Source: Deltaproteobacteria bacterium
Lineage (GTDB): Bacteria > Desulfobacterota > Syntrophia > Syntrophales > JACQWR01
Direction: 5' to 3'
Length of the DNA stretch: 64,000 nucleotides
Assembly (NCBI GenBank): GCA_016209105.1
Contig: JACQWR010000018.1
Location: forward strand, 62,001-126,000
The position numbers and the translations under genes were made by a program. Shown here piece after piece: positions 18,619-54,102 of this stretch. Below the pieces are notes generated by a model. It saw nothing but the letters and a program-made list of their open reading frames with translations. It ran no database searches and had not been told where the DNA came from. The first letter of the stretch is position 1, and every line of letters begins with the position of its first letter.

Positions 18619-19047
18619 ATGCCGGCATTGCCTCTGGACATTGAGAAACTGATCCCTCATCGGGACCGGATGAAATTAATCAATGAGGTGATAGCGGTAA
18701 ACGCGGATATGGCCGTAACGTCATCCATCGTCTCCGAGCGATGGCCCCTCTGTGACGGGTCTTTTGTTGATCCTCTCGTCCTCATTGAGGTTGTTGCGCA
18801 GACGGCGGGAGTCCACGTAAGCTGGAAAAAAGGAACAGACAAGGGTGTCGGCGGGATGGGATGGCTCGTGGGAATTAAGGACGCCGATTTCTTCCTGGAT
18901 CGGGTTTCGCTCCATACGGAGTTGATCACCACGGTAAAAAATCTGTACAGCGTCGAAAACTATAATGTCCTGGAGGGAACCGTTCTGGCAGGAATAGACC
19001 TCCTGTGCCGGATACAGATACAGGTATTCCGGTCCGGATCGGATTGA
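18619..19047 (+). CDS. Hotdog 3-hydroxyacyl-ACP dehydratase subunit, lacks catalytic His (ApeI-like)
   Basis: A 142-residue FabZ-like hotdog protein. It keeps the N-terminal LIPHRDRMKLI motif and the E57..Q61 pair (LVLIEVVAQTAG) that carries the catalytic acid in FabZ. The HFPxxP segment with the catalytic His is replaced by CDGSFVDP. By itself it therefore lacks half of the active site. The second hotdog dehydratase at 41562 has the opposite loss, so the two probably pair. It would dehydrate 3-hydroxyacyl-ACP during polyene chain growth. First gene of a rightward operon. Confidence 0.75.
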   Translation: MPALPLDIEKLIPHRDRMKLINEVIAVNADMAVTSSIVSERWPLCDGSFVDPLVLIEVVAQTAGVHVSWKKGTDKGVGGMGWLVGIKDADFFLDRVSLHTELITTVKNLYSVENYNVLEGTVLAGIDLLCRIQIQVFRSGSD

Positions 19048-19084
19048 GCATTGCCATCGTAGCGCATTATAGGAGCAACGTACG

Positions 19085-19813
19085 ATGAACGAAGAGCAGG
19101 TCGCGCTGGTGACGGGGGGCAGTCGTGGCATTGGCCGTGCCATTGCCGTTGAGTTGTCCGAGGCAGGTTACAGGATCATCCTCACGTACAAATCAAACGA
19201 TCTGTCCGCCGAGGAAACCCTGGAAATCATCCGTTCGAAGGGCGGCCACGGAGAAAAGATCCGGTTTGATGTGGCCGATTCAAAAGAAACAGCAAAACAG
19301 ATGGATGAAATCATTTCCCACTATACCGACATTCGCGTCCTGGTCAATAATGCCGGAGTAACCGCCGACGGCCTCTTTATGATGATGCCGGAGGAAGACT
19401 GGGATAGGGTTATACAAACGACCCTGAAAGGCTTTTACAATGTAACAAAACCGGTTCTCCGGAGGATGGTTCGAAATAAGAAAGGATCCATCGTTTCCAT
19501 TTCTTCCGCGTCAGCCCTCCTGGGAAACAGGGGGCAGGCCAATTACGCCGCGGCAAAGTCCGGATTGATCGCCGCGAGTCGCTCCCTGGCATCCGAGGTG
19601 GCACGGCTGGGCGTCCGGGTCAATGTGGTCGCACCGGGGCTGATTGATACGGAAATGATCAAGGGAGCGCCGGTAGAGAAAATTAAGGAGATTATCCCCA
19701 TGGCGAGAATCGGCAGGCCGGAAGAGGTTGCGAAGGTCGTCCGTTTCCTCTGTTCCGATGATGCCTCGTATATTACGGGACAGGTAATCTCCGTGAACGG
19801 CGGCATGATCTAG
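19085..19813 (+). CDS. fabG: 3-oxoacyl-ACP reductase, FabG family
   Basis: This is a short-chain dehydrogenase of 242 residues with GGSRGIGRAI for NADPH (11-20), the NNAG motif at 88-91 and catalytic S141, Y154 and K158. It reduces the 3-oxoacyl-ACP formed by the cluster ketosynthases. It lies 37 bases after the dehydratase gene with an AGGAG site. It is the only ketoreductase in the cluster, so it probably serves every elongation round (the ApeQ role). Confidence 0.9.
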   Translation: MNEEQVALVTGGSRGIGRAIAVELSEAGYRIILTYKSNDLSAEETLEIIRSKGGHGEKIRFDVADSKETAKQMDEIISHYTDIRVLVNNAGVTADGLFMMMPEEDWDRVIQTTLKGFYNVTKPVLRRMVRNKKGSIVSISSASALLGNRGQANYAAAKSGLIAASRSLASEVARLGVRVNVVAPGLIDTEMIKGAPVEKIKEIIPMARIGRPEEVAKVVRFLCSDDASYITGQVISVNGGMI

Positions 19814-19844
19814 TGTCGTGTTTCAGTAAAGGCTTTACCATGCC

Positions 19845-19909
19845 GTCATTTCGAGCGAAACGGGAAATCTTCATGAGAATAAACTATTAAAAGATATCTC
19901 CCTTGGGTC
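19845..19909. repeat. TCATTTCGAGCGAA dispersed repeat, copy 1
   Basis: GTCATTTCGAGCGAAACGGG, AAATCTTCATG and AAAAGATATCTCCCTTGGGTCG match, in inverse orientation, the sequence at 37611-37677. It lies in the 148-base gap between the ketoreductase and LolA-like genes. Confidence 0.7.
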
Positions 19910-19961
19910 GATATGACATCGAATCAGGATAACACCATATGAGCAGCCTGAAATAGATTTT

Positions 19962-20594
19962 ATGACTATTTACCGCACAATAAAAAGAGGGACATCCCTC
20001 ATCGGGATGCTTCTTGTCTGCACGTTCCTGCTCGGATGGGCAGACACCTGGGAGGATATTCAAAGAGCATCCTCAAAGATAACATCGGTCAGCGCTCGTT
20101 TCTCTCAGGAAAAGCACATGCAGATCCTCGCCAAACCGCTCATTTCCCGGGGGCGTTTTTATTTTCAGACACCCGATTCGGTCAGATGGGAATACACCGC
20201 TCCCGTGAGAAGCGTTTTGCTGATGCACAAAGGCAAAATCAAACGATACACCCAGGGCAGTAAAGGCTTCGTCGAGGATAGGGGCGGGGCCGTTGATTCG
20301 ATGCAGTTCATCCTCCAGGAGATCGGCAGGTGGAGCAAGGGACGGTTCAACGAGAATGAGTATTTTTCGGCGACGCTGAAAGGGGGAACGGGGGCGCATA
20401 TTATCCTGACCCCCAAGGAAAAGGGACTTGCGGCCATGATATCGCGCATCGTGATAACCCCTTCCCCGGACAGACCGGGAGTCCTCAAATCCGTTACCAT
20501 TGTCGAAAGCGAGGAAAATTATACCCTCTTTGAATTCACCGACTCGCAGCTCAATGCGCCTATCGCTGAATCGTTGTTTCGGGAAGTGGAATGA
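19962..20594 (+). CDS. LolA-like outer-membrane lipoprotein carrier protein
   Basis: A 210-residue exported protein with an N-terminal hydrophobic segment (about 12-26) and LolA-type features: the TSVSARFSQEKHMQILAKPLISRGRFYFQTPDSVRWEYTAP region and a beta-rich remainder. LolA homologues are standard members of aryl polyene clusters, where they are thought to ferry the lipid product across the periplasm with the MMPL exporter. The stop overlaps the next lipoprotein gene (ATGA). Confidence 0.8.
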   Translation: MTIYRTIKRGTSLIGMLLVCTFLLGWADTWEDIQRASSKITSVSARFSQEKHMQILAKPLISRGRFYFQTPDSVRWEYTAPVRSVLLMHKGKIKRYTQGSKGFVEDRGGAVDSMQFILQEIGRWSKGRFNENEYFSATLKGGTGAHIILTPKEKGLAAMISRIVITPSPDRPGVLKSVTIVESEENYTLFEFTDSQLNAPIAESLFREVE

Positions 20595-21268
20595 AAGCCC
20601 CCCTGTTGCCCAGGAGCCGGTTTTGGATCGTGATGTGGGCGGTCTGCCTTATCTCCTGCAGCCCTCTTCCCGTCATTAAGCCGACGGATCAAACGGCGGC
20701 TACCGTGCGGAAGTGTCGTCAGCCCTTTCTCGACACTCCCTACCGTTTCGTTCATGCCATTGAGGCCGCATTGCCGGGCGGCGGATCGGGAACGGTTCTG
20801 GGTATCACCGTCTTTAATCCGGAATCAAAGGCGATCCACAGTGCGATCTTCACCCTTGAGGGATTTGTTCTGTTTGATGCCCGGTATGATGGCAAACTGG
20901 TTGTGTCTCGAGCGCTGCCGCCATTCAATGCGGAGCGCTTTGCCGAATACATGATGGAGGATATTCGTCTTATTTTTCTTCCCCCTGAGGGAAGGCTCTT
21001 AACTGCCGGCACGCTTGAAGACGGATCAGCTATCTGCCGGTATGAAGGAAATCAGGAAACCATTATAGATGTGATCGTCCATCGGGATGACAGCTGGGAA
21101 ATCTCCACCTATCGCAATCGGTATGAACGGCTGCGAACAATCAGCGGCTTTTCCGTACGGGATGGGATTCCCGGAATGCTGGAACTGACCGGTTTCGAAT
21201 CCAGGAATTATTCGTTGCGCCTGAAGGTAATCAGTGCCGAGCCGCTTTCCCGCGAGACGATCCCCTGA
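20591..21268 (+). CDS. Aryl polyene cluster lipoprotein (DUF3261-like)
   Basis: The 225-residue protein has a lipobox at LISC (C23) and a predicted beta-rich domain. By position after LolA and by size it matches the DUF3261 lipoprotein of aryl polyene clusters, presumably an outer-membrane partner receiving the product. I recognise it mainly by context; the domain call is not certain. Confidence 0.65.
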   Translation: MKAPLLPRSRFWIVMWAVCLISCSPLPVIKPTDQTAATVRKCRQPFLDTPYRFVHAIEAALPGGGSGTVLGITVFNPESKAIHSAIFTLEGFVLFDARYDGKLVVSRALPPFNAERFAEYMMEDIRLIFLPPEGRLLTAGTLEDGSAICRYEGNQETIIDVIVHRDDSWEISTYRNRYERLRTISGFSVRDGIPGMLELTGFESRNYSLRLKVISAEPLSRETIP

Positions 21269-21269
21269 A

Positions 21270-21371
21270 GCACTCAATCCACAGGGCGGGGCTTCTCGGT
21301 AAGGACATCATTATTTGCCATGCGCCCCTAACCCCGCTCACACGCGGGGCTTAACCGGTCGCGCCCGGTCA
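21270..21371 (-). repeat. Double-hairpin dispersed repeat, copy C (minus orientation)
   Basis: Read on the minus strand it shows GACCGG, a CCCCGC/GCGGGG hairpin (plus-strand 332-337 and 344-349 of the 21 kb region), then GGGGCGC, an AT-rich linker, TTACCGAGAAGCCCCGCC and a degenerate second hairpin. It is the same family as 28371-28481, 48561-48668 and the shortened 25981-26030. Confidence 0.75.
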
Positions 21372-21381
21372 GGAAACCACC

Positions 21382-22662
21382 GTGAAATTCAAACTGATCT
21401 ATCCGAAATGGAAAAAACTGGAACGGCAAACGGAATTCCACCTTCCGCCCCACGGCCCCGTCGTCTTTGCGGCGACACTGCCCGACGATGTGGAAATTGA
21501 TTTTACCGATGAAAACGTGGAAGCCCTCAACTTCGACGATTCCCCCGATCTCGTGGGGATATCAATGCTGCTGACCAGCCAAGTCAAGCGGGGGTGGGAG
21601 ATTGCCGATACGTACCGGCAGCAGGGAATCAAGGTTATCTTCGGGGGCATCGCAACAATGCTGCATGCCGAGGAAACAATGCTGCGCGCAGATGCTGTCT
21701 TTCTTGGCGAGGCGGAAGGCAGGATGGAGGAGGTCATCCGCGATTTCCGAAACGGTCGGCTCAAGAAGCGCTACGACTACATGACCGATTTTCCCCCCGT
21801 TGAAAGTATCGGGACGGCACGGAGAGAGATATTAAACCGTGAATTATACAATTACAAAGGCGTGCAGATGCTGGATCTCGTGCATGCGTCGCGGGGATGC
21901 CGATTCAATTGCTATCCCTGCTGCGTGTCCTTTCTGGGAGGGAGGAAGTTCCGCCCCCGCCCCATTGACCGGGTGATGAATGAATTGGCCACCATTGACA
22001 ACAACCGCCTGTTCATCGTGGACAATTCCCTCGCCCAGGACAAGAACTGGGAGCGGGAGCTCTTTACGGCCATGATCCCCCTGAAAAAGAAATGGTGCTG
22101 CCATCCCATTGAGGACGACGACGAGATTCTTGATCTTGCCGCCCGTGCGGGCGCCTGGTACGTGTACCAGGCCATCTTTGACACATCGGACTATATCCGG
22201 GATCGCATCAGGCGCTACCACGAACACGGCATCGCTGTGGAGGGAACGATCCTCCTGGGCCTCGACGACCATACCGAAGACTCCATTCGCCGGCTCGTAG
22301 ATTTTCTCATGGATATCAATCTGGACCTTGCCGAATTCACCTTGCTCACGCCGTTCCCCCACACCCGGACATTTGACGACCTGCGCCGGGCCGGACGAAT
22401 CCTCTCCGCCGACTGGGACGATTACACGGCGGACAAGGTGGTCTTCCAACCCAGAAACATGACACCGGAGCGGCTTCAGGATATCTACAACTACGCCTGG
22501 GATGCCTTCTACCGGGATGAGCCCCAAACCTATAAAATGTTCAAGCTCATGCAGAAAGTAATCGAGAAGGAGAAAGACGGCGGAACATACCGGGGCCGCA
22601 AGCGCGATCTGATAGACCGTCGGTTCGGAAAAACGGAAAAATGCATTGGGGGTAAATCATGA
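21382..22662 (+). CDS. B12-binding-domain radical SAM protein
   Basis: The 426-residue protein has an N-terminal cobalamin-binding-like Rossmann domain (about 25-125) and a radical SAM core with CxxxCxxC at C173/C177/C180 (GCRFNCYPC). GTG at 21382 follows an AGGAAA site. Such proteins carry out methylations or carbon-skeleton chemistry; the substrate is unknown. It lies between the lipoprotein and ammonia lyase genes and overlaps the latter by four bases. No conserved DxHxxG cobalamin ligand is seen, so cobalamin, if bound, would be base-off. Confidence 0.82.
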   Translation: MKFKLIYPKWKKLERQTEFHLPPHGPVVFAATLPDDVEIDFTDENVEALNFDDSPDLVGISMLLTSQVKRGWEIADTYRQQGIKVIFGGIATMLHAEETMLRADAVFLGEAEGRMEEVIRDFRNGRLKKRYDYMTDFPPVESIGTARREILNRELYNYKGVQMLDLVHASRGCRFNCYPCCVSFLGGRKFRPRPIDRVMNELATIDNNRLFIVDNSLAQDKNWERELFTAMIPLKKKWCCHPIEDDDEILDLAARAGAWYVYQAIFDTSDYIRDRIRRYHEHGIAVEGTILLGLDDHTEDSIRRLVDFLMDINLDLAEFTLLTPFPHTRTFDDLRRAGRILSADWDDYTADKVVFQPRNMTPERLQDIYNYAWDAFYRDEPQTYKMFKLMQKVIEKEKDGGTYRGRKRDLIDRRFGKTEKCIGGKS

Positions 22663-24203
22663 AGCAACAAGCGACCAGAATGGTGACCATCGGCAGGAAC
22701 CCGTTGACGCTGGAAGAGATTATTGCCGTCGCACGGGGGAACGCCCCGGTAAAACTCAGCCGCGAACGCTCCTTCCGGGATCGGATCCGCCGAAGCGAAG
22801 CCATGCTTTATTCCGCCATCCGCAACGAGATTCCCATCTACGGCGTCAACACGGGATACGGCAAGTCCTGCGGGAAGCGACTGACGCAGGATCAGGTACT
22901 AAAGCACCGCAAGGACAATCTCATCCGGTTTCACGGCTGCGGCACCGGCGAGCCCATTGGCGTCGAGGCAACACGGGCAGCCATGCTCTGCCGCCTCATC
23001 TGCTTATCCCGTGGCTATTCCGGCGTTTCCTTCGGGCTCCTGGAACAACTGGCGGCCTTTCTCAACCACGGGATTACGCCCGTCGTCCCCTGCGAGGGAT
23101 CCGTGGGGGCTTCCGGTGACCTGACCCCCATGTCCTACGTGGCGGCGGCTCTGACGGGGAAGCGCGATGTTTTCTGCCGGGGTAAGCGCATGCCCGCCAC
23201 GGGGGCGCTGAGACTGTCCGGCCTCGCCCCGTACGCCTTCGCCCCGAAGGAAGCCATCTCCATGCTGAACGGCACCTCCACGATGACGGGTCTGGCAATC
23301 CTTGCCGTGGAGAGGGCCGGTCGGATTCTGAATGCAGGCATTTTCGCCACGGCGCTCACCGTCCACGCCCTGAAGGGAAAGGCTCTCCACTTCCACCCTA
23401 CCATCGGCGAGGCAAAACCCTTTCCGGGGCAAGTCCAGGTTGCCCGCCGTCTGACAGAGCTCCTCCGGATGCGGAAACGCATCGCCGATATCGAGTCCCA
23501 GGCAAAAGAAGACCTGCAGGACCCCTATTCCGTCCGGTGCGCCCCGCACATCATCGGGGTGCTTTCCGATGCCCTGACATGGATCCGGCAATGGGTCGAG
23601 ACCGAGGCAAACAGCGCCAACGACAACCCCATCTTCGATCCGGAAACGAGTCAGCCGCTCATGAGCGGAAATTTCTATGGCGGACACATAGCCTTCGCCA
23701 TGGATGCCCTGAAGGCCGCCCTGGCGTCCATAGCGGACATGTGCGACCGACAGGTGACCCTGCTGGTGGATCCCCTTTTCAACCGGGGGCTCCCGGCAGA
23801 CCTGGTGCGGGTTCCAAGCGAATCCCTGGTATTTCACCACGGCTTTAAGGCCATGTCCCTCTCCACATCGGCATTGGCGGCAGAGGCGCTGAAACTGACC
23901 ATACCCGCGGCCTCCTTTTCCCGTTCCACGGAATCCCACAACCAGGACAAGGTCAGTATGGGAACCATCGCCGCCCGCGACGCGGAACGGATATGCACGC
24001 TGACGGAGCGGGTGCTGGCCATCCATCTTCTCGCCGCCGCCCAGGGCTGCGAGATCCGCGGGAACATTGATGTACGGCCAAGACTTGTGTCCCTCATCCA
24101 TCAGATCCGCTCCCTGTCGGAAGCAGTGCTGGAAGACCGCGAAATGGACGAAGACATTGAGCGCCTCGCCCGGACCATTGCCAAGGCGGAACTGTTCAGT
24201 TAA
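22659..24203 (+). CDS. Aromatic amino acid ammonia lyase (HAL/PAL/TAL family)
   Basis: A 514-residue MIO-type lyase. The self-made MIO cofactor derives from Ala-Ser-Gly 151-153 (SVGASGDLTPMSY), catalytic Tyr is Y61 in YGVNTGYG, and NDNP plus the FxHNQD-like ESHNQDKVSMG motif are present. In an aryl polyene setting it should deaminate tyrosine or phenylalanine to the cinnamic acid starter. The selectivity pair in NLIRFHGCGTG reads Phe-His, unlike the Ser-His of histidine lyases, His-Leu of bacterial tyrosine lyases or Phe-Leu of plant phenylalanine lyases, so specificity cannot be assigned by sight. No hut genes are nearby. Confidence 0.88.
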   Translation: MKQQATRMVTIGRNPLTLEEIIAVARGNAPVKLSRERSFRDRIRRSEAMLYSAIRNEIPIYGVNTGYGKSCGKRLTQDQVLKHRKDNLIRFHGCGTGEPIGVEATRAAMLCRLICLSRGYSGVSFGLLEQLAAFLNHGITPVVPCEGSVGASGDLTPMSYVAAALTGKRDVFCRGKRMPATGALRLSGLAPYAFAPKEAISMLNGTSTMTGLAILAVERAGRILNAGIFATALTVHALKGKALHFHPTIGEAKPFPGQVQVARRLTELLRMRKRIADIESQAKEDLQDPYSVRCAPHIIGVLSDALTWIRQWVETEANSANDNPIFDPETSQPLMSGNFYGGHIAFAMDALKAALASIADMCDRQVTLLVDPLFNRGLPADLVRVPSESLVFHHGFKAMSLSTSALAAEALKLTIPAASFSRSTESHNQDKVSMGTIAARDAERICTLTERVLAIHLLAAAQGCEIRGNIDVRPRLVSLIHQIRSLSEAVLEDREMDEDIERLARTIAKAELFS

Positions 24204-24241: not shown

Positions 24242-25984
24242 ATGGACAGTCAGTTGCACGCCATGAGAGAGGATTTCCGGCAGGCCATCATTGCCGGCGT
24301 CGAACGCCTCACGGCCTGTGCTGATCTCCTGGACCGGATCAATGTCTTCCCCATCGCGGATGGCGACACGGGTCGGAATTTCGTCATCAGCTTATCACCC
24401 CTGCGCCGACCAGAACGGGACCGGAAGATCGTGGCCCGTGATCTTCTCCTCTCGGCACGGGGGAATTCGGGAAATATCGCCTCCGCTTTTTTCCAATGCT
24501 TTATTCAGTCGGATTCCCTCGAAGACCTGCCGGATACCGTCCGGCTGGGACGCGATCGCTCGCGGAAAGCTATACCCGAACCTCAAGAGGGGACGATGCT
24601 GAGTTTCTTCGATGCCCTGGCGGCAGGCCTTCCCGATGCCGGAGTTCTCTCCGATCCAGAGCGGATCGCTGAACTCCTGACACAACTGGAAACCGTCGTC
24701 CGCAATACGACGGATCAGCAGCAGAAGCTCCGGAAGGCCGGGGTGGTGGATGCCGGCGCTCTGGGTCTCTTCCTGTACTTCGAAGGATTCTTCCATCTCC
24801 TCGCGGGTGGCCGAGTCCCCTTCCGTCTTTTACCGGAAGCGTTTCGCGACCGGCTTCAGATCTCGCCCTCCTACGGCGGAGATCGGGAAACGGGGTACTG
24901 TGTGGACACGGTGCTGCAGGGCGAAGCGGATGCGGCAGAGACGGGACAGATGCTTACTACCCTTGGCGAGTCGGTTATCGTAACCCGCACGGATGCCTGT
25001 TATAAAATTCATTTTCACACCCAGGACCGTGAAGATGCCCGCCGGAAGCTTGTCCGCCTGGGGAAAGTCATCGGCTGGGCGGAAGATGATTTACACCAGC
25101 AAACATCGGCCTTCGCCCGCACAAGCCGCGAGCCCGCCATCCACATCATGACCGACGCGGCGGCCTCACTCAGCCGCCAGGATGCGAAGGATTTAGGAAT
25201 CAGCCTCCTGGACAGCTACATCACCATCGGGGATCGCTGCCTGCCGGAGACCTATTTCAGTCCGGAGGAGCTCTACAACGCCATGCGTTCAGGTCAGCGG
25301 GTGACGACCGCCCAGGCCTCCGTCTTCGAGCGCCACCAGTTCTATGCAAGCGTTATGAGCCGCTATGCGCAGGTGCTCTACCTGTGCGTTGGATCGGCCT
25401 TCACGGGCAACTATCCGGTGGTCATGGACTGGAAGCGGCAGCATGACCCGGAGGACCGTCTCGTCGTGCTGGATACCGGCGCGGCGTCGGGACGGCTCGG
25501 GGTGCTTGCCCGCGCCGTGGCCGCCTGTGCCTCTGAGGCCGACGAGGCCGGGCGCGTCATCGCCTATGCCCGGCAGGCTTTGACCCGCTGCGAGGAATAT
25601 GTGTTTCTCGATCGCCTCGAATATCTGGCTGCCGGAGGGCGGCTGTCGAAAACGGGGGCATTTTTCGGCGATATGCTGCACATGAAACCGATTGTGAGCC
25701 CGATGGCTGAGGGGGTCCGCAAGGTCGGCATCGCACGGAACCGGAAAGATCAATTGCGTTTTGCGCTGGATGCCTTGGACTGTTCGCTGAAGCAGGATAA
25801 CAATGCCCTTATCCTGCTGGAATATTCGGATAACCGGCCTTGGGTGGATGAGGTCGGGCTTGAGGTGGCAAAACGCTATCCGGAGGCCCGCATAGTCGTG
25901 CATTCCCTGTCTTTGACCTCCGGCGCGCACATGGGCCCCGGAACCTGGGCCCTGGCCTTTCTGCCGGACCTCAGGATGCAGTGA
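24242..25984 (+). CDS. DhaL (FakA-like) kinase - DegV (FakB-like) fusion, putative acyl kinase
   Basis: The 580-residue protein joins two normally separate partners. Residues 1-190 are a DhaL/DAK2 kinase domain with NVFPIADGDTG (Mg-ATP binding, D40/D42) and GNSGN (74-78). About 195-295 is a FakA-like middle region. Residues 298-580 are a DegV acyl-binding domain with MTDAAASL, TTAQAS, GSAFTGNY and YLAAGGRLSKTG. In Firmicutes FakA phosphorylates a fatty acid held by FakB to acyl-phosphate. A one-chain version at the end of the starter operon could activate or recycle a fatty or aryl acid. The role is inferred; the fusion is seen directly. Confidence 0.82.
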   Translation: MDSQLHAMREDFRQAIIAGVERLTACADLLDRINVFPIADGDTGRNFVISLSPLRRPERDRKIVARDLLLSARGNSGNIASAFFQCFIQSDSLEDLPDTVRLGRDRSRKAIPEPQEGTMLSFFDALAAGLPDAGVLSDPERIAELLTQLETVVRNTTDQQQKLRKAGVVDAGALGLFLYFEGFFHLLAGGRVPFRLLPEAFRDRLQISPSYGGDRETGYCVDTVLQGEADAAETGQMLTTLGESVIVTRTDACYKIHFHTQDREDARRKLVRLGKVIGWAEDDLHQQTSAFARTSREPAIHIMTDAAASLSRQDAKDLGISLLDSYITIGDRCLPETYFSPEELYNAMRSGQRVTTAQASVFERHQFYASVMSRYAQVLYLCVGSAFTGNYPVVMDWKRQHDPEDRLVVLDTGAASGRLGVLARAVAACASEADEAGRVIAYARQALTRCEEYVFLDRLEYLAAGGRLSKTGAFFGDMLHMKPIVSPMAEGVRKVGIARNRKDQLRFALDALDCSLKQDNNALILLEYSDNRPWVDEVGLEVAKRYPEARIVVHSLSLTSGAHMGPGTWALAFLPDLRMQ

Positions 25985-29745: not shown

Positions 29746-30354
29746 CTATCCACGTTTATCAGAATGACTACTGCTGAAAAGGTCCATGATATTTTGTTCG
29801 TGGTTATAGAAGATAAACAGGGCCGTGGCGATTGTCCCCGCCGTTGCCGAGGGATGGTATCCGCATGCGATGATCGTTCCGACCATGAGCACGGCCATCA
29901 TAAAAAAAGAAGCAATAAAAGGAATACGGACAATCCCGTATGCCATCAACCAGACGAGAGCCGAAATCATGGCCGATACGGGTGAGAGCAAAGCGGTAAA
30001 ACCCAGATAGCTTGCCACCCCTTTCCCCCCGCGGAATTGATGGAAACAGGGGAAGTGGTTGCCGAGGACGAGGACAAGTCCAACCCAGGGAACGTACTGT
30101 TTCGGGAGCAAATCCAGCGCGGCCCCTGAAACGACGACAGCCCTGCCTAAATCAAGTAATAGTACTACTCCGGCCCACCACAACCCGGCCTGCCGATAGA
30201 CATTCGTAGCCCCGGCATTCCCGCTGAAATGATACCTCGGATCATCCCTCCCCAGCATACTGAAGAGCAGGATGGGAAAATTAACCGAACCCGCAAGGTA
30301 GGTTGCCGGTAGGAGCATTGCCAGCATCATGACGGTATTCTCCACTACGTGCAT
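29746..30354 (-). CDS. plsY: PlsY-type acyl-phosphate:glycerol-3-phosphate acyltransferase
   Basis: This integral membrane acyltransferase has the family motifs SGNAGATNVYR (motif 1), GNHFPCFHQFRGGKGVA (motif 2) and a helical C-terminal part. It moves an acyl group from acyl-phosphate to glycerol-3-phosphate. ATG 30354 follows the stop of the upstream gene by 25 bases; longer in-frame starts would lie inside that gene. As the last gene of a polyketide-like operon it may make a specialised lipid. Its acyl-phosphate substrate is what a FakA/FakB-type kinase (24242) makes. Confidence 0.82.
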   Translation of the reverse strand: MHVVENTVMMLAMLLPATYLAGSVNFPILLFSMLGRDDPRYHFSGNAGATNVYRQAGLWWAGVVLLLDLGRAVVVSGAALDLLPKQYVPWVGLVLVLGNHFPCFHQFRGGKGVASYLGFTALLSPVSAMISALVWLMAYGIVRIPFIASFFMMAVLMVGTIIACGYHPSATAGTIATALFIFYNHEQNIMDLFSSSHSDKRG

Positions 30355-30379
30355 AATGACCCGTTCGTGCGAAACATTA

Positions 30380-31915
30380 TCATTCCCGTTTAACCAGGGT
30401 AAAAACGTGATCATCCACGGTATCGTGAAAGGCCGCGTATCGTATCCCTTCAACGCTCAGACGACTTTCATTTATTCCTATCTCACTGACCGATACGTGC
30501 TTCCAGGATTCGGCAAGAGACCTGCCCGTTGCCTTGGATACCCCTTCCTTTATGGACCAGACCCGGACCGAGGCCTGAGTAACTCCCAGGGGAGACGCAT
30601 CCGTCAATGTCATTTCCTCCCGTCCCATATAAGCGTGTCGGACCTTCAGAATCCTGTCGGCTATCATTTCCACGTCCACCCCGATCTCCCCATCGCCCGC
30701 AACGGCGACCGCAAAACGGCGATCGTGTGATACGGAACAGTTCATGGGCCCCGTGTTCCCCAAAACAGGACAACAGGGTCGAATTCCATCCGCCATCACC
30801 GTATGGATATCGGCGGCCGGCGTCGCCCTGTCCCCGCCGGACAGTTTCCGTGAAAGATATTTCAAGGCAAGACGCGCACCCAGATAGTTTCTGAGCCTTT
30901 TTGCTCCCATGCGTTCAGAACGCTCACGTTCATCACTCGAAAGGGCATTTATGGCAAAATCCACGACCGTATCATGATCAATGACGGATAAAGCCCTGCA
31001 CTCTCCCCTGATGACGGCAAGTGGATCTGTCCCCTCGCTCCGCACCCATTCGGGGGGCCTGATGCGGCCGCCGGAGATATCCCTCATCAGTACACCTCTG
31101 ATATACTCGCGAAGGCCCGCCGACAAATCATGAATCCATATGTCGAAGGTAAGTGACGAGCCAGTCACCGGAGCAGGCAGGATCCTGCAGAAGTACGTTT
31201 CACCCGGGACAGTCGGATTGACGACGAGGCGTTCCTCAAAGCCCACCGGAAAGGCCACGGTATTATGGAACCGCTGTCCCCAGGCGCAGGCGGCATGGAG
31301 AGCCGCGTCCAGGGGAAAGGTTGAGCCGAGGGGCTCCGACGGCGCCGGATGCTCCGCTGCCTGAACGTGGGCCACCGCGCCGCTTGCAGACAGAAAAATT
31401 TTTCCGGTGATGTTCTGATAAGACGGCCCGAAGGGTACGAGGTCGCTGTACAATTTCCCAGAGGAGACCCCGCAGGAAATCCCCTCCAGGGCCGACGCCA
31501 TATCCATGGGGAGTCCAGAGATACGTTCCCCCGTTTCCGCAAAATCAACGACGGCATGGACCTTCGTTCTCCTGATCGTCGTGCCCCGTATCATGCCCTC
31601 GGTAATAAATTTGGACGAGATGCGGCCACATTCATAGACTTCCAGTTCGTTACAGGCTTCAATGACGCCTGAATCCTCCTCAACAGGCAATAATCGGTCG
31701 AATGAGGCAAAGCGCATGCGTCTGACGTGCACGTCGGAACGATAAGAAAGCGCCGATCCGGCCAGCAACTGAAGGATCTCAACGGCTGGGAAAATGATTT
31801 TCCCGTCAAAATGGTGGTCTTTGAGATAGGGCTGAACAGGGATTGCCAGGGGAAGACGGATCCGTTCCCTCATGCGTGAAGGGTCCACCGTTGAAGAGAC
31901 CGGGGACGGCGTCAT
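30380..31915 (-). CDS. Polyketide-type dehydratase - phosphopantetheinyl transferase fusion
   Basis: A 511-residue bifunctional protein. The N-terminal double-hotdog dehydratase (about 20-290) has the PKS-DH motif H34-x3-G38-x4-P43 and the second catalytic acid at D203 (FPLDAALHAA). The C-terminal domain (about 310-505) is an Sfp-type 4-prime-phosphopantetheinyl transferase with SVSHD (394-398), IGVDVE (411-416) and WSIKEGVSK (453-461). It can both dehydrate chains and activate the three cluster ACPs. Its ATG overlaps the upstream radical-SAM stop by four bases. The fusion is uncommon. Confidence 0.82.
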   Translation of the reverse strand: MTPSPVSSTVDPSRMRERIRLPLAIPVQPYLKDHHFDGKIIFPAVEILQLLAGSALSYRSDVHVRRMRFASFDRLLPVEEDSGVIEACNELEVYECGRISSKFITEGMIRGTTIRRTKVHAVVDFAETGERISGLPMDMASALEGISCGVSSGKLYSDLVPFGPSYQNITGKIFLSASGAVAHVQAAEHPAPSEPLGSTFPLDAALHAACAWGQRFHNTVAFPVGFEERLVVNPTVPGETYFCRILPAPVTGSSLTFDIWIHDLSAGLREYIRGVLMRDISGGRIRPPEWVRSEGTDPLAVIRGECRALSVIDHDTVVDFAINALSSDERERSERMGAKRLRNYLGARLALKYLSRKLSGGDRATPAADIHTVMADGIRPCCPVLGNTGPMNCSVSHDRRFAVAVAGDGEIGVDVEMIADRILKVRHAYMGREEMTLTDASPLGVTQASVRVWSIKEGVSKATGRSLAESWKHVSVSEIGINESRLSVEGIRYAAFHDTVDDHVFTLVKRE

Positions 31916-33456
31916 GGAACCCCTCCGCCGGCTCTGCGACCCGCCTGGTGTTCATTATTGTCGTTCATGAACGCCTGCAGATCATCAAAGTGATTCATCC
32001 TTTCCAAACGATGGATATCTCTCTGATACCGGCCCTCCCATCCGATCTTACGGATCTGCCTGTCTACAAAAAATTTCATGACCGGCTTGACCAGATACAT
32101 CCAAATGGATGTCCATAGCCTGCCCTGCCTCGTCACAAAGGTTGATGGTTTCCACCAGCCCAAAACGGTCTGCCGGGCGTGCCAGAAGGCGTATTGCAAT
32201 TGATCCGCATCCAGATGCCTTGTTTTCACATTCGCCCAGAGGCCGTTATACCGCTCATAATGATCGGTATTCACCACCAGTCCCTCGCTGATCAGATGCT
32301 CTCTGAGTTTTGTCTTGGGAAAGGGTGACAGCATCTGACAGTAGGAGGCGTCCACCTCCAGATCAATTAAGAATTGATAGTTCCGCCTGATGGCCTCTTC
32401 ATCATCATCAGGCAATCCAAAGATCAGGCCGCCGATCACCATAATGCCGTTCCGCTGGCAATTCTCCACGGCACGCCTCGCCTCTTTCACTACGTCAGCC
32501 TTCTCCATAGTCCGGAGATTTTGACTCGATGCATTTTCGATCCCCAGGAAAACGGTGCGGAATCCCGCCTGGGCCATTTTTTCCACCATCGCTTCATTGC
32601 AGGCCATGGAAATGCAGTCGGCCTGTACGACGAGGTGCAGGTTTTTATAGTTTCTCTGTATAATGGCATCGCAAACGTTCATCACCCATTTCGGATTTAA
32701 AACCATATTGTCATCGGTGATAAAGATCAGCTTTGTTTTCCTGTTGAAATAGATATCGTCAAGATCGGCAAGTATGCGCTCAATGGGGTATGTCCGATAC
32801 GAACGGCCGTACATATGATTGATGCTGCAGAAACTACAGTTGCGGGTGCACCCCCGCGAGGTTTCCATGACCTCGATTCTGCTGTACATAAAATGATACC
32901 CGCTCGTTAAACGCCTGCGATCCCGGATGGGCGGTTTTAAACGCGACAAATCGCAGAGCGGGCACTGCTCGTTGTGAACCCACTGCCCGTCCCGCTTGTA
33001 CGAGAGAGACGGTACGGCGTCCAGCCGGTCCGTCCCCGCCAGGGCGTTCACCAGCCGGCGGAAGGCCTCTTCCCCTTCCCCCCTGACAATGAAATCCACG
33101 TTCTGCGATTCAGGGGATGCGGTCATTTCCCGGTGCATCAATGTGGCGTGATAACCGCCGACGGCGATCTTCACCCGGGGAAGGATATGTTTAATGAGTC
33201 CGATCAAGGCCAGGCAGGTGGGATACTGCCATGTCATGGCAGACAGTCCGATCAGGTCGGGCTTGATTTTTTTCAATGTCTTCGTCAGATAGGCGGAGAT
33301 GCTGTTTCGTTTACGCACGAGGTCAATGAGATAGACCTCATGTCCCGCATCGATATTTCCGCCGATACAGGCAATACCGTGATTCGGCATATGGATCGCC
33401 ATTTCGTGGATGATGATGGGCACCACATCCGGCATGGAGATGAGGACAACTTTCAC
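31912..33456 (-). CDS. B12-binding-domain radical SAM protein
   Basis: The 514-residue protein has an N-terminal cobalamin-binding-like domain (about 1-140, with GGYHATLM and RGEGEEAF) and a radical SAM core with CxxxCxxC at C203/C207/C210. It also has a C-terminal helical extension (about 430-514). The layout is that of cobalamin-dependent methylases and cyclases such as BchE/HpnP relatives. Its start overlaps the plsC-like gene and its stop overlaps the dehydratase fusion, so the three are tightly coupled. Substrate unknown, presumably a chain on ACP or a membrane lipid. Confidence 0.85.
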   Translation of the reverse strand: MKVVLISMPDVVPIIIHEMAIHMPNHGIACIGGNIDAGHEVYLIDLVRKRNSISAYLTKTLKKIKPDLIGLSAMTWQYPTCLALIGLIKHILPRVKIAVGGYHATLMHREMTASPESQNVDFIVRGEGEEAFRRLVNALAGTDRLDAVPSLSYKRDGQWVHNEQCPLCDLSRLKPPIRDRRRLTSGYHFMYSRIEVMETSRGCTRNCSFCSINHMYGRSYRTYPIERILADLDDIYFNRKTKLIFITDDNMVLNPKWVMNVCDAIIQRNYKNLHLVVQADCISMACNEAMVEKMAQAGFRTVFLGIENASSQNLRTMEKADVVKEARRAVENCQRNGIMVIGGLIFGLPDDDEEAIRRNYQFLIDLEVDASYCQMLSPFPKTKLREHLISEGLVVNTDHYERYNGLWANVKTRHLDADQLQYAFWHARQTVLGWWKPSTFVTRQGRLWTSIWMYLVKPVMKFFVDRQIRKIGWEGRYQRDIHRLERMNHFDDLQAFMNDNNEHQAGRRAGGGVP

Positions 33457-34217
33457 CGGTTCATGTTCCTTTCCATGAGAGACCGCGCTTCCGTCATGAG
33501 ACCGGACAGTGAAAAAGAATCGCTCTCATAATCCGGCTCAAGGCTTCCGGCCAGTTCCACCTCAATGACATTCCGGGCACCGGTATCAAATAGCGCCTTG
33601 CCGGGCGGATAGAGTTTATCGGTATTGCGAATGATTACGACCTTGATGGGGGCACGGCAGAGCCTGGCGATTCTGAACACCCCTTTGTCAAATGGGCCGA
33701 TCCGGCCGTTGCGGCTTCTCGTCCCCTCGGGGAAGACGAAGAGGTTCCCGCCTGACGACAGATACGCAGTCAGGTTTTTGATCTGATTCATCAGATCCTC
33801 GGTGAACAGCGTGTCCGCCGCGGACGGTATGTAGCCGGACGTCTTCAATATCCAGCCGAAAACGGGAAGTCTGAAGTAGCCGCTGTTGGCGATGGTTTTC
33901 TGTTTTTCAAAGAGCGACACAAAAAGAATGGGATCAAGGAACGAGAGGTGGTTGGCAATAATGATGGAAGAACGAAGCGAGGAAACCTCTTCCGATACAT
34001 GCCATTTCACTCCGGGGACAATGGTTCGCAACACAGAGAAAAAACAGCGGTGGAGCAGACAATTTAATTTCTGGAAGGCCTCTTCACGCCGCGATGAAAA
34101 AAAGAATGCAGAGAGATAGAAGGGGGAAAAGAACAGAAGATATCCCAACAGGTAATACACCCACAGGGTGAGGGTGATGGTAAAATCCAAAATGGGTCTT
34201 ATCAATGCGGAGAACAT
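33453..34217 (-). CDS. PlsC-like 1-acyl-glycerol-3-phosphate acyltransferase family protein
   Basis: The 254-residue membrane-bound protein carries the acyltransferase motif H90-x4-D95 (NHLSFLDP) and FPEGTRSRNG at about 159-168, with hydrophobic helices at 8-42. It would attach an acyl (or aryl-polyene) chain to a lipid head group. It follows a ketosynthase gene by 13 bases. Confidence 0.86.
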   Translation of the reverse strand: MFSALIRPILDFTITLTLWVYYLLGYLLFFSPFYLSAFFFSSRREEAFQKLNCLLHRCFFSVLRTIVPGVKWHVSEEVSSLRSSIIIANHLSFLDPILFVSLFEKQKTIANSGYFRLPVFGWILKTSGYIPSAADTLFTEDLMNQIKNLTAYLSSGGNLFVFPEGTRSRNGRIGPFDKGVFRIARLCRAPIKVVIIRNTDKLYPPGKALFDTGARNVIEVELAGSLEPDYESDSFSLSGLMTEARSLMERNMNR

Positions 34218-35806: not shown

Positions 35807-36286
35807 TTATTTCGGAAAGGCTTTCCACAGGTGAACCGTCTTCGGGTCAACGGTCACCGGTTTTCCCGCTGAGTTGAGCGCGCAATGCCTGGTAAACCCG
35901 GTGCAGATGATCCTCCCGGTTTCACCATGGGTAATCACATAATCGAACCGAAGCTTCACCCGTTCCAGCTCCGCCGGCCGGGTATGAATATGCAGGGGAT
36001 CGTCATAGTAGAGGGGTTCATAGAACTGTATTCCCAGATCAATAATCGGGTAGACATAGCCGCTCGCTTCTATTTCCCGGTACGGGTATGCCGCATCCCG
36101 CATCAACGAGGCGCGGCCAAATTCAAAATACCGCAGATAATTGGCGTGATAGACCACGGTGGAACGATCCGTATCGGCGTAGAGCGTCCGTTCCCGGCAT
36201 CGGTGCCAGACAAGGTCGGTCTCCTGATCCCGGACATAACGGTCGTCACTTCCCAATGTTTTCGGTCTGAATGGTTTCGGTCTCAT
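35807..36286 (-). CDS. 4-hydroxybenzoyl-CoA-type acyl thioesterase (hotdog)
   Basis: The 159-residue hotdog thioesterase from ATG 36286 has the motif YADTDRSTVVYHANYLRYFEFGR, in which D38/D40 match the 4HBT/YbgC active site. It would hydrolyse aryl- or acyl-ACP/CoA, releasing the chain or clearing mis-primed ACP. It starts one base after the stop of the preceding KS gene. Confidence 0.82.
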   Translation of the reverse strand: MRPKPFRPKTLGSDDRYVRDQETDLVWHRCRERTLYADTDRSTVVYHANYLRYFEFGRASLMRDAAYPYREIEASGYVYPIIDLGIQFYEPLYYDDPLHIHTRPAELERVKLRFDYVITHGETGRIICTGFTRHCALNSAGKPVTVDPKTVHLWKAFPK

Positions 36287-36287
36287 G

Positions 36288-37553
36288 CTACACCCCTCTG
36301 AACAGAACACAACAGTTCGTGCCGCCGAAGCCGAAGGCATTCGACAGGACGATTTCATGATGGCGTCGGCGTGCGCCATCGGCAACGAAGTCCAACCCCT
36401 CAAACTGCGGATCGGGAATATAGTTTATCGTAGGAAGCATGATCCCCCGCTGCATGCCCTCTATAGCCAGGGCATTCTCAATGGCGGCGGCGGCGCCGAG
36501 GGTATGACCGATCTGGGATTTATTCGACGATATGGGAATATCGTTCAATCGGTCGCCAAAAACGGCGCGCAGACAGTCAATCTCCGTGCTGTCCCCATTG
36601 GTCGTGGACGTTCCATGCGCATTGACATACTCAACGTCGCCTGCCTTCAGACCGGCATCGTCAATGGTTTCCCGGATCGCCCGGATAATGGTTTCTCTGT
36701 TCGGTCTCGTAAAATGATAGGCATCGGAACTCCATCCGACACCCATGACTTCCGCTTTCGCCTTCAGGCCGTACGGGGAAAGGGTTTCCTCTGCGGCAAG
36801 AACGATTACCCCTCCCCCTTCGGAAAGGACAAACCCTCTTCGGTCAATGCTGAACGGTCGGGATGCCTGAGACGGATCGTCACAGGCGCGATCATCATGG
36901 CATATCTTGATAGTGGCGTTCATATTGGCAAAGCCATGGATAATTTCGGGCATAATCGGCATGTCCACGCCGCCGGCAAGGACAAAGTCGCAGTCTCCGT
37001 CGCGGATCATCCGTGAACCGACGGCAACGGCATAGTTACCCGAAGCACACGCCCCCTGGGGAGAGAATATGGGACCGGTAAAACCCAGAAGCATTCCCGC
37101 CTTGCCCGACGGCAGGTTCGCGCAGAGGTTGGGGAGCAGATAGGGACTTACCTTCAACGGCCCCTTCTCCCTCAGATTTTCCGCGGCGATACGGAAGGAA
37201 TCCGTTCCGTTTATGGCCGAGCCGATCAGACACGCCGTTCGGGAACTGGTTTCTCCATTTAAGTGAAGTCCGGAATTCTCCAATGCCTCCTTACATACCG
37301 CCATGGTCAGAATGACAAAAGAGGCATTCCAGTTGTACACTTCTTTCTCGCTCGAAAAATCAAAGGTGCGAGGATCCCAGTCGGGAATCTCTCCCACGAT
37401 ATTACGGGCGGACTTCACCTCGCACCGCGTCACTTTGCGGAACCCCGCCTCGCCTTTTACCGCACGCTCCCAGGTGCGGGCAAATGTCTTCCCCAGGGGC
37501 GACGCCGCGCCATATCCGATGACAAATACCCGCCTGTTTTTCGGTGCTTTCAT
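36288..37553 (-). CDS. Beta-ketoacyl-ACP synthase (KS)
   Basis: A 421-residue KS with catalytic C169 (QGACASGN), NAHGTSTTNGD and NKSQIGHTLGAA. The start at 37553 has an AGGAAA site (in CAGGAAATGT), whereas the longer start at 37589 has none. It resembles its neighbour at 37713 more than the KS at 34231, suggesting duplication. Elongation or starter condensation in the cluster. Confidence 0.88.
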   Translation of the reverse strand: MKAPKNRRVFVIGYGAASPLGKTFARTWERAVKGEAGFRKVTRCEVKSARNIVGEIPDWDPRTFDFSSEKEVYNWNASFVILTMAVCKEALENSGLHLNGETSSRTACLIGSAINGTDSFRIAAENLREKGPLKVSPYLLPNLCANLPSGKAGMLLGFTGPIFSPQGACASGNYAVAVGSRMIRDGDCDFVLAGGVDMPIMPEIIHGFANMNATIKICHDDRACDDPSQASRPFSIDRRGFVLSEGGGVIVLAAEETLSPYGLKAKAEVMGVGWSSDAYHFTRPNRETIIRAIRETIDDAGLKAGDVEYVNAHGTSTTNGDSTEIDCLRAVFGDRLNDIPISSNKSQIGHTLGAAAAIENALAIEGMQRGIMLPTINYIPDPQFEGLDFVADGARRRHHEIVLSNAFGFGGTNCCVLFRGV

Positions 37554-37610
37554 ACATTTCCTGTTGAGCAAGGGAACGTAGTGCTTCACTTCGCAAAATC
37601 TGTGTCATAT

Positions 37611-37677
37611 CGCCTGAAGGGAGATATCTTTTATCGTCTAATATCCATCAAGATTTCTCGCTTCGTTCGAAATGACA
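37611..37677. repeat. TCATTTCGAGCGAA dispersed repeat, copy 2
   Basis: Read on the minus strand it is GTCATTTCGAACGAAGCGAG, AAATCTTGATGG and AAAAGATATCTCCCTTCAGGCG, matching 19845-19909. It fills the 159-base gap between two ketosynthase genes in the long operon. Confidence 0.7.
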
Positions 37678-37712
37678 GACAATAGGTAACCGAATTTATG
37701 AAGCAATGCAAC

Positions 37713-39008
37713 TCAGGCGATTCGGCGAAGGACAATACAGGAATTACAGCCGCCGAATCCAAACGCATTTTTCAACACGTGCTCCTGAGCAACACGTCTT
37801 GCGCCTTCCGGTACGCAATCAATCGGGATGTCCGGATCAGGCGAATAATTAATCGTGGGGAGCACCATATCCCGAATCATCCCTTCCATGGCGAGGATGA
37901 TCTCGATGGCGGACGACGCCCCCATGGCATGGCCCGTCTGGGACTTGTTGGCCGACACCGGCGGCATCTCCCCGCCGAAAATATCCTTCAAGGCATCCCC
38001 CTCGATCCGGTCGCCGATCTTCGTTGATGTGCCGTGTGCGTTGACCGCATCAATATCCCCGGGCTGCAGACCGGAATGGGCGATACTCTCCGCAATGCAC
38101 TGTTTGACCGTTTCAAGGTTCGGGGCGACAAAATGGTGGGCGTCGGATGTCATGGCCCATCCCGCCATTTCAATCCTGGGGGCAAGGCCATGGGCCTTTG
38201 CGAAATCCGCCCGCGCGATAATGATGCATCCGGCGCCTTCCGATACGACAAAGCCCCGCCGGTTGAGGGAGAAGGGACGGCTTGCTTTCTCCGGGGGTTC
38301 GACCGGCTGACCTTCCTTCGGCCGGTAGGCGCCGTTCATTGTGGCAAAACCGCCCAGAATGCTTTCCAGGAGAGGAAAGTCCACTGCGCCGCAAATGGCC
38401 ACATCCGCCATGCCCTGCGCTATGAACATGGCACCGAGAATCATGGACGTGGAGCCGGTCGCGCAGGCGGTAATCGTCGAAGTTATCGGGCCTGTCGCGC
38501 CGGTCATGATAGAGACCTTTCCCCCAACCATATTGATGCAGGAGTTTGCATTGGTATAGGGAGGGGGAAGTTTCCCTTCCGATACCAACTGCCTGTCGGC
38601 ATGGAGAACGGAGTCAAGTCCACCGATGGCGGAACTGAACGTAATGGCCACTCTCGGCGCAATATCACCCGTTATTTCAATCCCGCTCTTTTTCAACGCA
38701 CGGTGGACGACCAACAGCGCATGTTTAAAAACAGGCGATGTCCACAGCGCCATGTCACGGGATGTCAAAAAAGGGTAGGCATCGGTGACGATATCATCAA
38801 CCTGACCGGCTATTCTCACGGGGAATCGTTCGCGAAGGGGGAAACGGGTCAGACCGCCGATGCCGCTTAACCCCTGGGACGCGCGTTCCCACTGGGCATC
38901 CATATCAACGCCCAGGGGCGATACCGCATCATAGCCCACAATCACGGGTCGTCGCCCATCCGTTCTGGTCGGCCTGGTATTGGGTAGAGAAGATGTTGAC
39001 GCTACCAT
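37713..39008 (-). CDS. Beta-ketoacyl-ACP synthase (KS)
   Basis: A 431-residue KS with catalytic C182 (ITACATGSTS), NAHGTSTKIGD and NKSQTGHAMGAS. Its start overlaps the upstream radical-SAM gene by seven bases. Together with the KS at 36288 it forms a pair of related enzymes that might act as separate condensing steps or as a heterodimer. Confidence 0.88.
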   Translation of the reverse strand: MVASTSSLPNTRPTRTDGRRPVIVGYDAVSPLGVDMDAQWERASQGLSGIGGLTRFPLRERFPVRIAGQVDDIVTDAYPFLTSRDMALWTSPVFKHALLVVHRALKKSGIEITGDIAPRVAITFSSAIGGLDSVLHADRQLVSEGKLPPPYTNANSCINMVGGKVSIMTGATGPITSTITACATGSTSMILGAMFIAQGMADVAICGAVDFPLLESILGGFATMNGAYRPKEGQPVEPPEKASRPFSLNRRGFVVSEGAGCIIIARADFAKAHGLAPRIEMAGWAMTSDAHHFVAPNLETVKQCIAESIAHSGLQPGDIDAVNAHGTSTKIGDRIEGDALKDIFGGEMPPVSANKSQTGHAMGASSAIEIILAMEGMIRDMVLPTINYSPDPDIPIDCVPEGARRVAQEHVLKNAFGFGGCNSCIVLRRIA

Positions 39009-40000
39009 GGTATGAACCGGTAGAGTTTGGCGAACATTTCATAAACTTCTATCCAGTTCTGAAGGTCCTTCGTGGATTGCAGATGGTCTCGTTTGTTGAC
39101 CATAATCCAACTCATGTGCGCAGCGCCATCCTTGCAGGTGGAACAATCCCGTGTCGCAGAGGTGCAGCATCGGTGCACGGTTTTCAGGTCAGAGGCCCAC
39201 CGGATAAAGCGAATGAGCCTTTTGGGCCGAGGCGTCCTATTGTCCATCGGCTCCGTAACGGACGGGCATTCCGCCCATCCGAATTGACGATTCATCATCC
39301 TCCCCGTGGTGATGACTTCGTGATAGTACTTGCAAGAAATTACGGTCTTTGGATATGCATCCAGCATACCGTCCATTTCTGCCCGAACATCCCGCAGTTT
39401 CTCCTCCGTCCAGGAAAAACCGTCCACCTTTTCATCATTCGACAGCAACTGCAAATGAACCTTCAGTCCGACGTCGGCGATTTTTCGGATCATCTGTTCT
39501 ATCCGTCCAACCTGTTTCGGCGTAATCGTATAAAGATAGTACGTGTACGGATCACCTTGATAATTTTTGCTGGATACGGAGAACGTATCTTTTCCTCTGA
39601 GGATTTTTTCGTCTTCCTCATTTCCCCAGAGTGAGATACCCATCATCATATCGGGGAAACGGTCTCGGGGAATCTTGATCTGCCCGTTCGTCGAGCAAAA
39701 CGTCGGCAGTTGCGCATAGAAGGCCTCGATCCGGTCAAGGCACAGCGTCGGTTCCCCGCCGATTAATATGGCAAGATTGACGCCCCGCTCCTTTTCCTTC
39801 TGAATAAACCGGGACCATTTTCCCACATCCGTTTCCTCGGACGCGGCCTGATGTTCGTTGGAAGAAAAGAAGAAACAACCCTTACAGCGCAAATTGCACT
39901 GATTGGTCACATCGTAGATGGAGCTGCGGATATTCAGGGTAGCTATTTTTCGGTAACGCTCATGCCAGTTGTTATCGAGCAAGGAACTGACGGTTTTCAT
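39002..40000 (-). CDS. Radical SAM protein with C-terminal Cys cluster (paralogue 1)
   Basis: In this 332-residue radical SAM enzyme the CxxxCxxC motif is C35/C39/C42 (CNLRCKGC). The GGEPTL motif and an ENYQGDP-like segment (KNYQGDPYTYYLYT) are shared with the neighbour at 40072. Extra cysteines near the C-terminus (HRCCTSATRDCSTCKDG) suggest an auxiliary SPASM-like cluster. No B12 domain. Substrate unknown. It may be a tandem duplicate of the next gene. Confidence 0.84.
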   Translation of the reverse strand: MKTVSSLLDNNWHERYRKIATLNIRSSIYDVTNQCNLRCKGCFFFSSNEHQAASEETDVGKWSRFIQKEKERGVNLAILIGGEPTLCLDRIEAFYAQLPTFCSTNGQIKIPRDRFPDMMMGISLWGNEEDEKILRGKDTFSVSSKNYQGDPYTYYLYTITPKQVGRIEQMIRKIADVGLKVHLQLLSNDEKVDGFSWTEEKLRDVRAEMDGMLDAYPKTVISCKYYHEVITTGRMMNRQFGWAECPSVTEPMDNRTPRPKRLIRFIRWASDLKTVHRCCTSATRDCSTCKDGAAHMSWIMVNKRDHLQSTKDLQNWIEVYEMFAKLYRFIPW

Positions 40001-40071
40001 ACATGTCTCCCGGTTTCATATGCGCATCGGTCGGTACAAACATGGCGATTGCTACGGTATCTCTCCCTTGC

Positions 40072-41154: not shown

Positions 41155-41225
41155 GGCATCCACAAATTCGCGCGCTCGTCACCCACCGCTGCTTGCCCAA
41201 GGAGAGCTTCGCTCATTCCCTCGAT

Positions 41226-49922: not shown

Positions 49923-49937
49923 TCTTTCCTCATTAAA

Positions 49938-53039: not shown

Positions 53040-53042
53040 GAC

Positions 53043-53768: not shown

Positions 53769-53840
53769 CAGTTCAGTCCCCTCCCCCGCTCCTCTGTTAT
53801 CATTCTGGAGATCGCTCTCTCCGGCCGTTACGTCCCGTAA

Positions 53841-53870
53841 TCTATAACCTTGGGAACACTTTTGTGTCAA
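53841..53870 (-). promoter_or_regulatory. Promoter of the glycosyltransferase-exporter-acyltransferase operon
   Basis: On the minus strand TTGACA (53870-53865), 18 bases and TATAGA (53846-53841) lie about 75 bases before ATG 53768. Confidence 0.6.
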
Positions 53871-53941
53871 TCCTTTAATACCGATCAGGAGTTCCCCCCT
53901 CATAACGAACTCGTAAATGGTCACCAAAACGTTAATGTTAG

Positions 53942-54102
53942 GACGGCTTTGTAAAAAGCTCCCCCGGCCTTCGCTGGGGCAGGCTGCGGCAAGGCATACA
54001 ACTTGAGCATCCGGACCGGGAGCGCATCCCGGAGGGGGCGCAAAAGTAATGAGTTCTTCCTTGCCGGGAAGTGCAAAGCACTTCAATTTTTACGAAGCCG
54101 TC
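53942..54102. repeat. 161-base MITE-like element with 16-base terminal inverted repeats
   Basis: GACGGCTTTGTAAAAA (53942-53957) and TTTTTACGAAGCCGTC (54087-54102) match at 15 of 16 positions when inverted. No coding sequence inside. It lies between divergent transcription units. No target duplication is obvious. Confidence 0.75.

Follow-up and report, generated by a model that had tools for sequence, protein, structure and literature searches.

Fatty acid kinase (Fak) is usually described as a two-protein salvage system of Gram-positive bacteria that works beside PlsX. The acyltransferase PlsY requires acyl-phosphate, which is normally made by PlsX. FakA of S. aureus consists, in this order, of an N domain (DhaL), an L domain responsible for dimerization and carrying the catalytic residues C240, H282, and H284, and a C domain, which is related to FakB and docks it (PMC9136124). 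The N and L domains alone are active; the C domain merely docks FakB, and the KM changes from 0.09 to 0.99 μM without it (PMC9136124). The residues of FakB1 that bind the carboxylate are Thr62, Ser95, and His270 (PMC8892158). Precedents exist for a route from Fak to PlsY: the thioesterase TesE, Fak, and PlsY act in succession (PMC12288450), and FakA/B together with PlsY functions without PlsX in vitro (PMC13400652).

The window, a stretch of 64,000 nucleotides analysed here, encodes a predicted acyl kinase in which counterparts of FakA and FakB are joined in one chain, referred to below as the fusion. The fusion shares the DhaL and L catalytic residues and the DegV carboxylate residues with FakA/FakB1/FakB2 of S. 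aureus and YloV/DegV of Bacillus; however, it is a single chain, FakA_C and a separate FakB are missing, its gene belongs to a biosynthetic cluster, and its host order is PlsX-less. The reading preferred here, with a probability of about 0.6, is that the fusion is a one-chain fatty acid kinase that feeds the acid made by the cluster, via acyl-phosphate, to PlsY and into glycerolipid. The order of thioesterase, free acid, acyl-phosphate, and PlsY proposed in this reading is that of the TesE/TesS branch of Enterococcus and Streptococcus; however, that branch is a minor one, runs beside PlsX, and serves ordinary lipid synthesis (PMC12288450), whereas the fusion is cluster-linked and PlsX-less. 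Here, one protein stands for Fak; it is bound up with one biosynthetic cluster and with a PlsY for which the order has no other recognised acyl-phosphate donor. The fusion and its domains are positioned in the window as follows:

24242-25984, plus strand: FakAB single-chain acyl kinase (DhaL, FakA middle, DegV), 580 residues; open reading frame and Pfam matches, activity predicted
24350-24790, plus strand: DhaL/DAK2 kinase domain, residues 37-183, with Mg/ATP residues N34, D40, D42, T43, N75, and D170
24890-25108, plus strand: FakA middle (L) domain, residues 217-289, with catalytic residues C220, H257, and H259 (named via PMC9136124)
25139-25966, plus strand: DegV/FakB domain, residues 300-575, with carboxylate-network residues T356, S385, and H563

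Domain organization and conserved residues of the fusion

The 580-residue translation of the open reading frame contains no internal stop, and the true start may be M8 (nucleotide 24263), where the homologues begin. Three Pfam matches, all exceeding the gathering cut-offs, cover the chain: Dak2 (residues 37-183, E 3e-13), FakA-like_M (217-289, E 4e-10), and DegV (300-575, E 4e-43). The single-chain FakA-FakB-like kinase proposed in an earlier, sequence-only reading of this DNA is thereby borne out, and the motifs that it had quoted, NVFPIADGDTG and GNSGN, are both found in the protein. That reading had treated FakA as a DhaL protein; the DhaL domain is indeed present, but FakA also has the L domain, with its catalytic Cys/His residues and role in dimerization, and the C domain that docks FakB. 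The third domain of the fusion is not FakA_C, because DegV scores 148 bits and FakA-like_C has no Pfam match in the window fusion. Judged from its sequence, the fusion is composed of N, L, and FakB, with FakB occupying the place of the docking FakA_C, which is predicted to be dispensable because FakB is covalently attached. The scores of the fusion lie below the NCBIfam equivalog cut-offs for FakA (82.7 versus 975 bits) and FakB1 (48.4 versus 350 bits). An AlphaFold2 model built from three sequences (the window fusion, L002, and L003) had a mean pLDDT of 50 and a pTM of 0.40, too poor for any geometry, including that of an acyl channel in the DegV domain, to be drawn from it.

Dozens of genomes contain the same full-length architecture, with identities of 38-75%; therefore, the fusion is not the product of an assembly join. 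It is the sole DAK2 protein and the sole DegV protein of the window genome. Within the window's order, it is present in 81 of 155 genomes, and 33 of the 395 genomes of a phylum sample match it at E <= 1e-20. Three of those 33 (G341, G450, and G484) owe their match to FakA and FakB encoded separately, and the phylum therefore contains the two-gene form as well. The search beyond the phylum consisted of one pattern scan. Its named matches belong to MAGs of Syntrophaceae (68%) and Smithella (49%), which makes Syntrophales the probable order of the window; a scan of viral contigs found no further homologues of the fusion. The open-licence PMC literature yielded no report of the fusion; DAK2-DegV architectures are presumably listed in domain databases. 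The fusion offers a one-polypeptide enzyme for studying how the acid is handed over from FakB to FakA.

Alignment to solved structures places FakA residues N32, D38, D40, T41, N82, and D185 at N34, D40, D42, T43, N75, and D170 of the fusion, C240, H282, and H284 at C220, H257, and H259, and FakB1 residues Thr62, Ser95, and His270 at T356, S385, and H563. Each of these catalytic and carboxylate residues is retained in at least 67 of 68 fusion homologues, and the fusion is very probably active as an acyl kinase. A regulatory or otherwise non-enzymatic role, in which the fusion would bind the acid of the cluster, would be in keeping with the regulatory or lipid-homeostasis phenotypes reported in Firmicutes upon loss of FakA or DegV proteins (PMC5539427, PMC10138225); however, the near-invariance of all the mapped catalytic residues across 38-75% identity makes such a function extremely unlikely.

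The biosynthetic cluster around the fusion

DNA surrounding close orthologues of the fusion was fetched from across the phylum, and the cluster proteins of the window were mapped onto it. At least two specific cluster genes were found at every one of the 48 loci, all of which have the same KS/radical-SAM/MMPL/LolA cluster type. This neighbourhood survey, a check that the earlier reading had itself named, supports its assignment of the fusion to the cluster. The commonest gene order is LolA, an unknown protein, B12 radical SAM, aromatic amino acid ammonia-lyase (TAL), in some cases a 4HBT thioesterase, the fusion, GT2, MMPL, and LipA-type acyltransferase. The window contains the following cluster genes:

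18619-22662, plus strand: FabZ-like dehydratase, KR, LolA, unknown protein, and B12 radical SAM, conserved upstream of the fusion
22659-24203, plus strand: aromatic amino acid ammonia-lyase (TAL/HAL family), adjoining the fusion but not universal
29746-30453, minus strand: PlsY of a divergent clade, with N for H at position 92; the sole PlsY of the genome
30380-31915, minus strand: protein with a phosphopantetheinyl transferase (PPT) domain, immediately upstream of PlsY
33453-34217, minus strand: PlsC-type acyltransferase, candidate for a second acylation
35807-36403, minus strand: 4HBT thioesterase (YbgC/FadM-like), putatively releasing the acid
36288-41163, minus strand: two radical SAM genes together with KS2 and KS3, a block of the operon found ahead of PlsY in other genomes
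42966-44315, minus strand: B12-binding radical SAM protein above the TIGR04072 cut-off (ladderane-type lipid biosynthesis)
49023-54086, minus strand: LipA-type acyltransferase, MMPL exporter-methyltransferase, and GT2, which in relatives immediately follow the fusion

The phosphopantetheinyl transferase domain takes up only residues 411-493 of the 511-residue product of 30380-31915 (minus strand), the first 400 residues of which have no Pfam match. The 1033-residue chain encoded at 49938-53039 (minus strand) joins an MMPL exporter region to a C-terminal methyltransferase domain. A 727-residue protein (45790-47973, minus strand) contains two ketoacyl-synthase-type domains and resembles a KS-chain-length-factor pair in one chain.

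The features of Ladderane/Desulfotalea-type clusters, namely a TIGR04072 radical SAM (388 bits for 42966-44315 against a cut-off of 360 bits), FabF paralogues, and a CrtI-like oxidase, are all present in the window cluster. Desulfotalea psychrophila and the ladderane bacterium Kuenenia stuttgartiensis have FASII/radical-SAM clusters, candidates for ladderane synthesis, that share with the window FabF paralogues and radical SAM, phytoene-desaturase-like, acyl ligase, and membrane transporter genes; however, the window cluster includes kinase, DegV, and PlsY genes, none of which is named for those clusters (PMC2649909). The ammonia-lyase, a KR close to FlxB, dehydratase, KS genes, LolA, MMPL exporter, and LipA-type acyltransferase are reminiscent of aryl polyene and flexirubin clusters. 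By contrast, the window scores lie below the equivalog cut-offs for FlxA (297 versus 700 bits) and FlxB (302 versus 340 bits), and the cluster has many radical SAM genes. It is possible that it works like an aryl polyene or flexirubin cluster, for which, to our knowledge, there is no Fak or PlsY.

The ammonia-lyase next to the window fusion is present in 29 of the 48 loci and absent from 19; the kinase thus follows the core of the cluster rather than the aromatic starter, and TAL was rejected as the defining partner of the fusion. Hydroxycinnamates, which the sequence-only reading had named for a kinase assay, are for the same reason not supported as the defining substrate. That reading stands in part: the one-chain kinase, its membership of the cluster, and the link to PlsY hold. 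A kinase that phosphorylates coumarate or cinnamate from the ammonia-lyase, and so primes the synthase, would account for the position of TAL; however, it is improbable given the 19 loci devoid of the gene, the AMP ligase with similarity to 4-coumarate-ligase that the window cluster already encodes, the long acyl chains that FakB pockets are known to hold, and an order with no PlsX to shift such a phosphate onto ACP. At 15 loci, the gene immediately preceding the fusion encodes a 4HBT thioesterase; in the window none adjoins the fusion, and the 4HBT gene is a separate one at 35807-36403.

PlsY and its link to the fusion

PlsX above the cut-off was found in none of the 154 genomes of the order by a search that was positive in eight of 14 control genomes, and it was not found in the window genome either. 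PlsB is present in 137 of the 154 genomes and PlsY in 80. PlsB is therefore the usual glycerol-3-phosphate (G3P) acyltransferase of the order, and PlsY was rejected as its housekeeping enzyme. The fusion and PlsY occur together in 72 genomes, the fusion alone in nine, PlsY alone in eight, and neither in 66. Stratified by family, which is a partial rather than a full phylogenetic correction, the association has an odds ratio of 20 (p 9e-9), and the two genes co-vary within seven families. Among 13 genomes compared, picked as long or obvious cases, the two genes share a contig in 12 and are 0.6-28 kb apart.

The position of PlsY is also fixed. In 17 of 19 PlsY loci, the gene is right behind a block of radical SAM, KS3, KS2, 4HBT, and PPT, with KS1/acyltransferase intervening in some of them, and this holds even where a different contig carries the fusion; the remaining two loci are partial (L135) or contain a different PlsY (L137). 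The earlier description of PlsY as the end of a long operon is right, since the synthase operon on the minus strand closes with PlsY, but the fusion belongs to a convergent plus-strand operon that begins at 18619. In the window, the two genes are neighbours 3.8 kb apart that are not co-transcribed. The proposed link from Fak to PlsY is supported by the absence of PlsX, the co-occurrence, and the fixed place of PlsY behind the synthase genes.

The window PlsY matches the Pfam family G3P_acyltransf. With PlsY of A. aeolicus as reference, the 24 cluster-type PlsYs retain S35, R45, K104, S142, H177, and N180 together with the GGKGVA phosphate loop; the G3P clamp, formed by S35, R45, K104, and N180, is thus kept. 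Residue 41 is mostly Thr in these proteins. Position 92, in the acyl-phosphate site, is Asn in all 24, whereas ordinary PlsYs have His. By sequence, the cluster PlsYs are a separate clade with preserved G3P and phosphate sites.

The kinase could instead activate ordinary free fatty acids, with FakAB-PlsY as the phospholipid entry route of this genome. Salvage is the known role of Fak (PMC10146087), and the window genome, which is 92% complete, has no match to PlsB or PlsX, so Fak-PlsY could serve housekeeping there too. In two PlsX-less genomes (G094 and G011), a distant fusion (~25% identity) outside the cluster forms a bicistron with an ordinary PlsY that has His at position 92; the fusion is the upstream gene on the same strand, and the gaps are 8 and 26 bp, respectively. 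However, the fusion lies within the cluster at all 48 loci, PlsB is also present in most fusion-bearing genomes of the order, the cluster PlsY forms a clade of its own, and about half of the order has neither fusion nor PlsY, all of which make a salvage or housekeeping role unlikely.

A proposed acyl-phosphate route and its exceptions

In the preferred reading, the one-chain kinase acts between the synthase and PlsY. The 4HBT thioesterase would hydrolyse the acyl-ACP of the cluster and free the acid made by the synthase, which is the most likely source of the substrate. The DegV domain would bind the free long-chain acid and offer its carboxylate to the DhaL/L-domain site, in cis or within a dimer, so that a separate FakB and the FakB-docking C domain would be unneeded. 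The N and L domains would then phosphorylate the bound acid to acyl-phosphate, which the PlsY of the cluster would transfer onto glycerol phosphate; a PlsC-type enzyme may attach the second chain. The product, putatively a glycerolipid with a special (polyene/aryl or polyunsaturated) acid, would thus be formed without PlsX and beside the PlsB route. In clusters without their own PlsY, the PlsX/PlsY of the host would accept the acyl-phosphate. Delivery of the acyl-phosphate to PlsY is probable, and the odds slightly favour the acid of the cluster as the substrate. The chances are about even that thioesterase, one-chain kinase, and H92N-type PlsY constitute a conserved module that loads an unusual acid made by radical-SAM/FASII enzymes onto glycerol phosphate, free of PlsX and apart from PlsB. 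The association of the fusion with PlsY suggests a testable route for attaching unusual cluster acids to membrane lipid. If the module exists, Gram-negative anaerobes would possess an acyl-phosphate branch reserved for special lipids, which would bear on the way in which acids of the Desulfotalea and ladderane types are delivered to their lipids.

Beyond the order, some fusion genomes have a cluster-type PlsY and most others an ordinary PlsX and PlsY. Counting against this route, several lineages have the fusion and lack the cluster-type PlsY. The single-contig genome G168 contains the fusion, a KS3-KS2-4HBT-PPT operon (L111, L155), and PlsX, with PlsY nowhere. Conversely, genomes G112 (100% complete) and G063 (96%) have the PlsY operon without the fusion; some of the nine fusion-only and eight PlsY-only genomes are partial, G112 and G063 not obviously so. 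G168 and the mostly PlsX-positive fusion genomes beyond the order would suit a scheme in which PlsX converts the acyl-phosphate to acyl-ACP and returns free acids to the synthase, a conversion that has been reconstituted with Fak (PMC9136124); however, PlsX is missing from the window genome and its order, and re-loading is very unlikely. Two genomes of the order, G072 and G073 (family f12; 99-100% complete, one of them a single contig), have no matches to PlsX, PlsY, or PlsB.

The genome G126 has FakB and FakA as a gene pair next to a PlsY-like gene in convergent orientation; together with G094 and G011, this shows that Fak beside PlsY recurs outside the cluster. The G126 locus (L035:7562-13295, contig C98) also includes alpha-oxoamine-synthase-like and epimerase-like genes, both named by eye, and is possibly another Fak-linked special-lipid locus.
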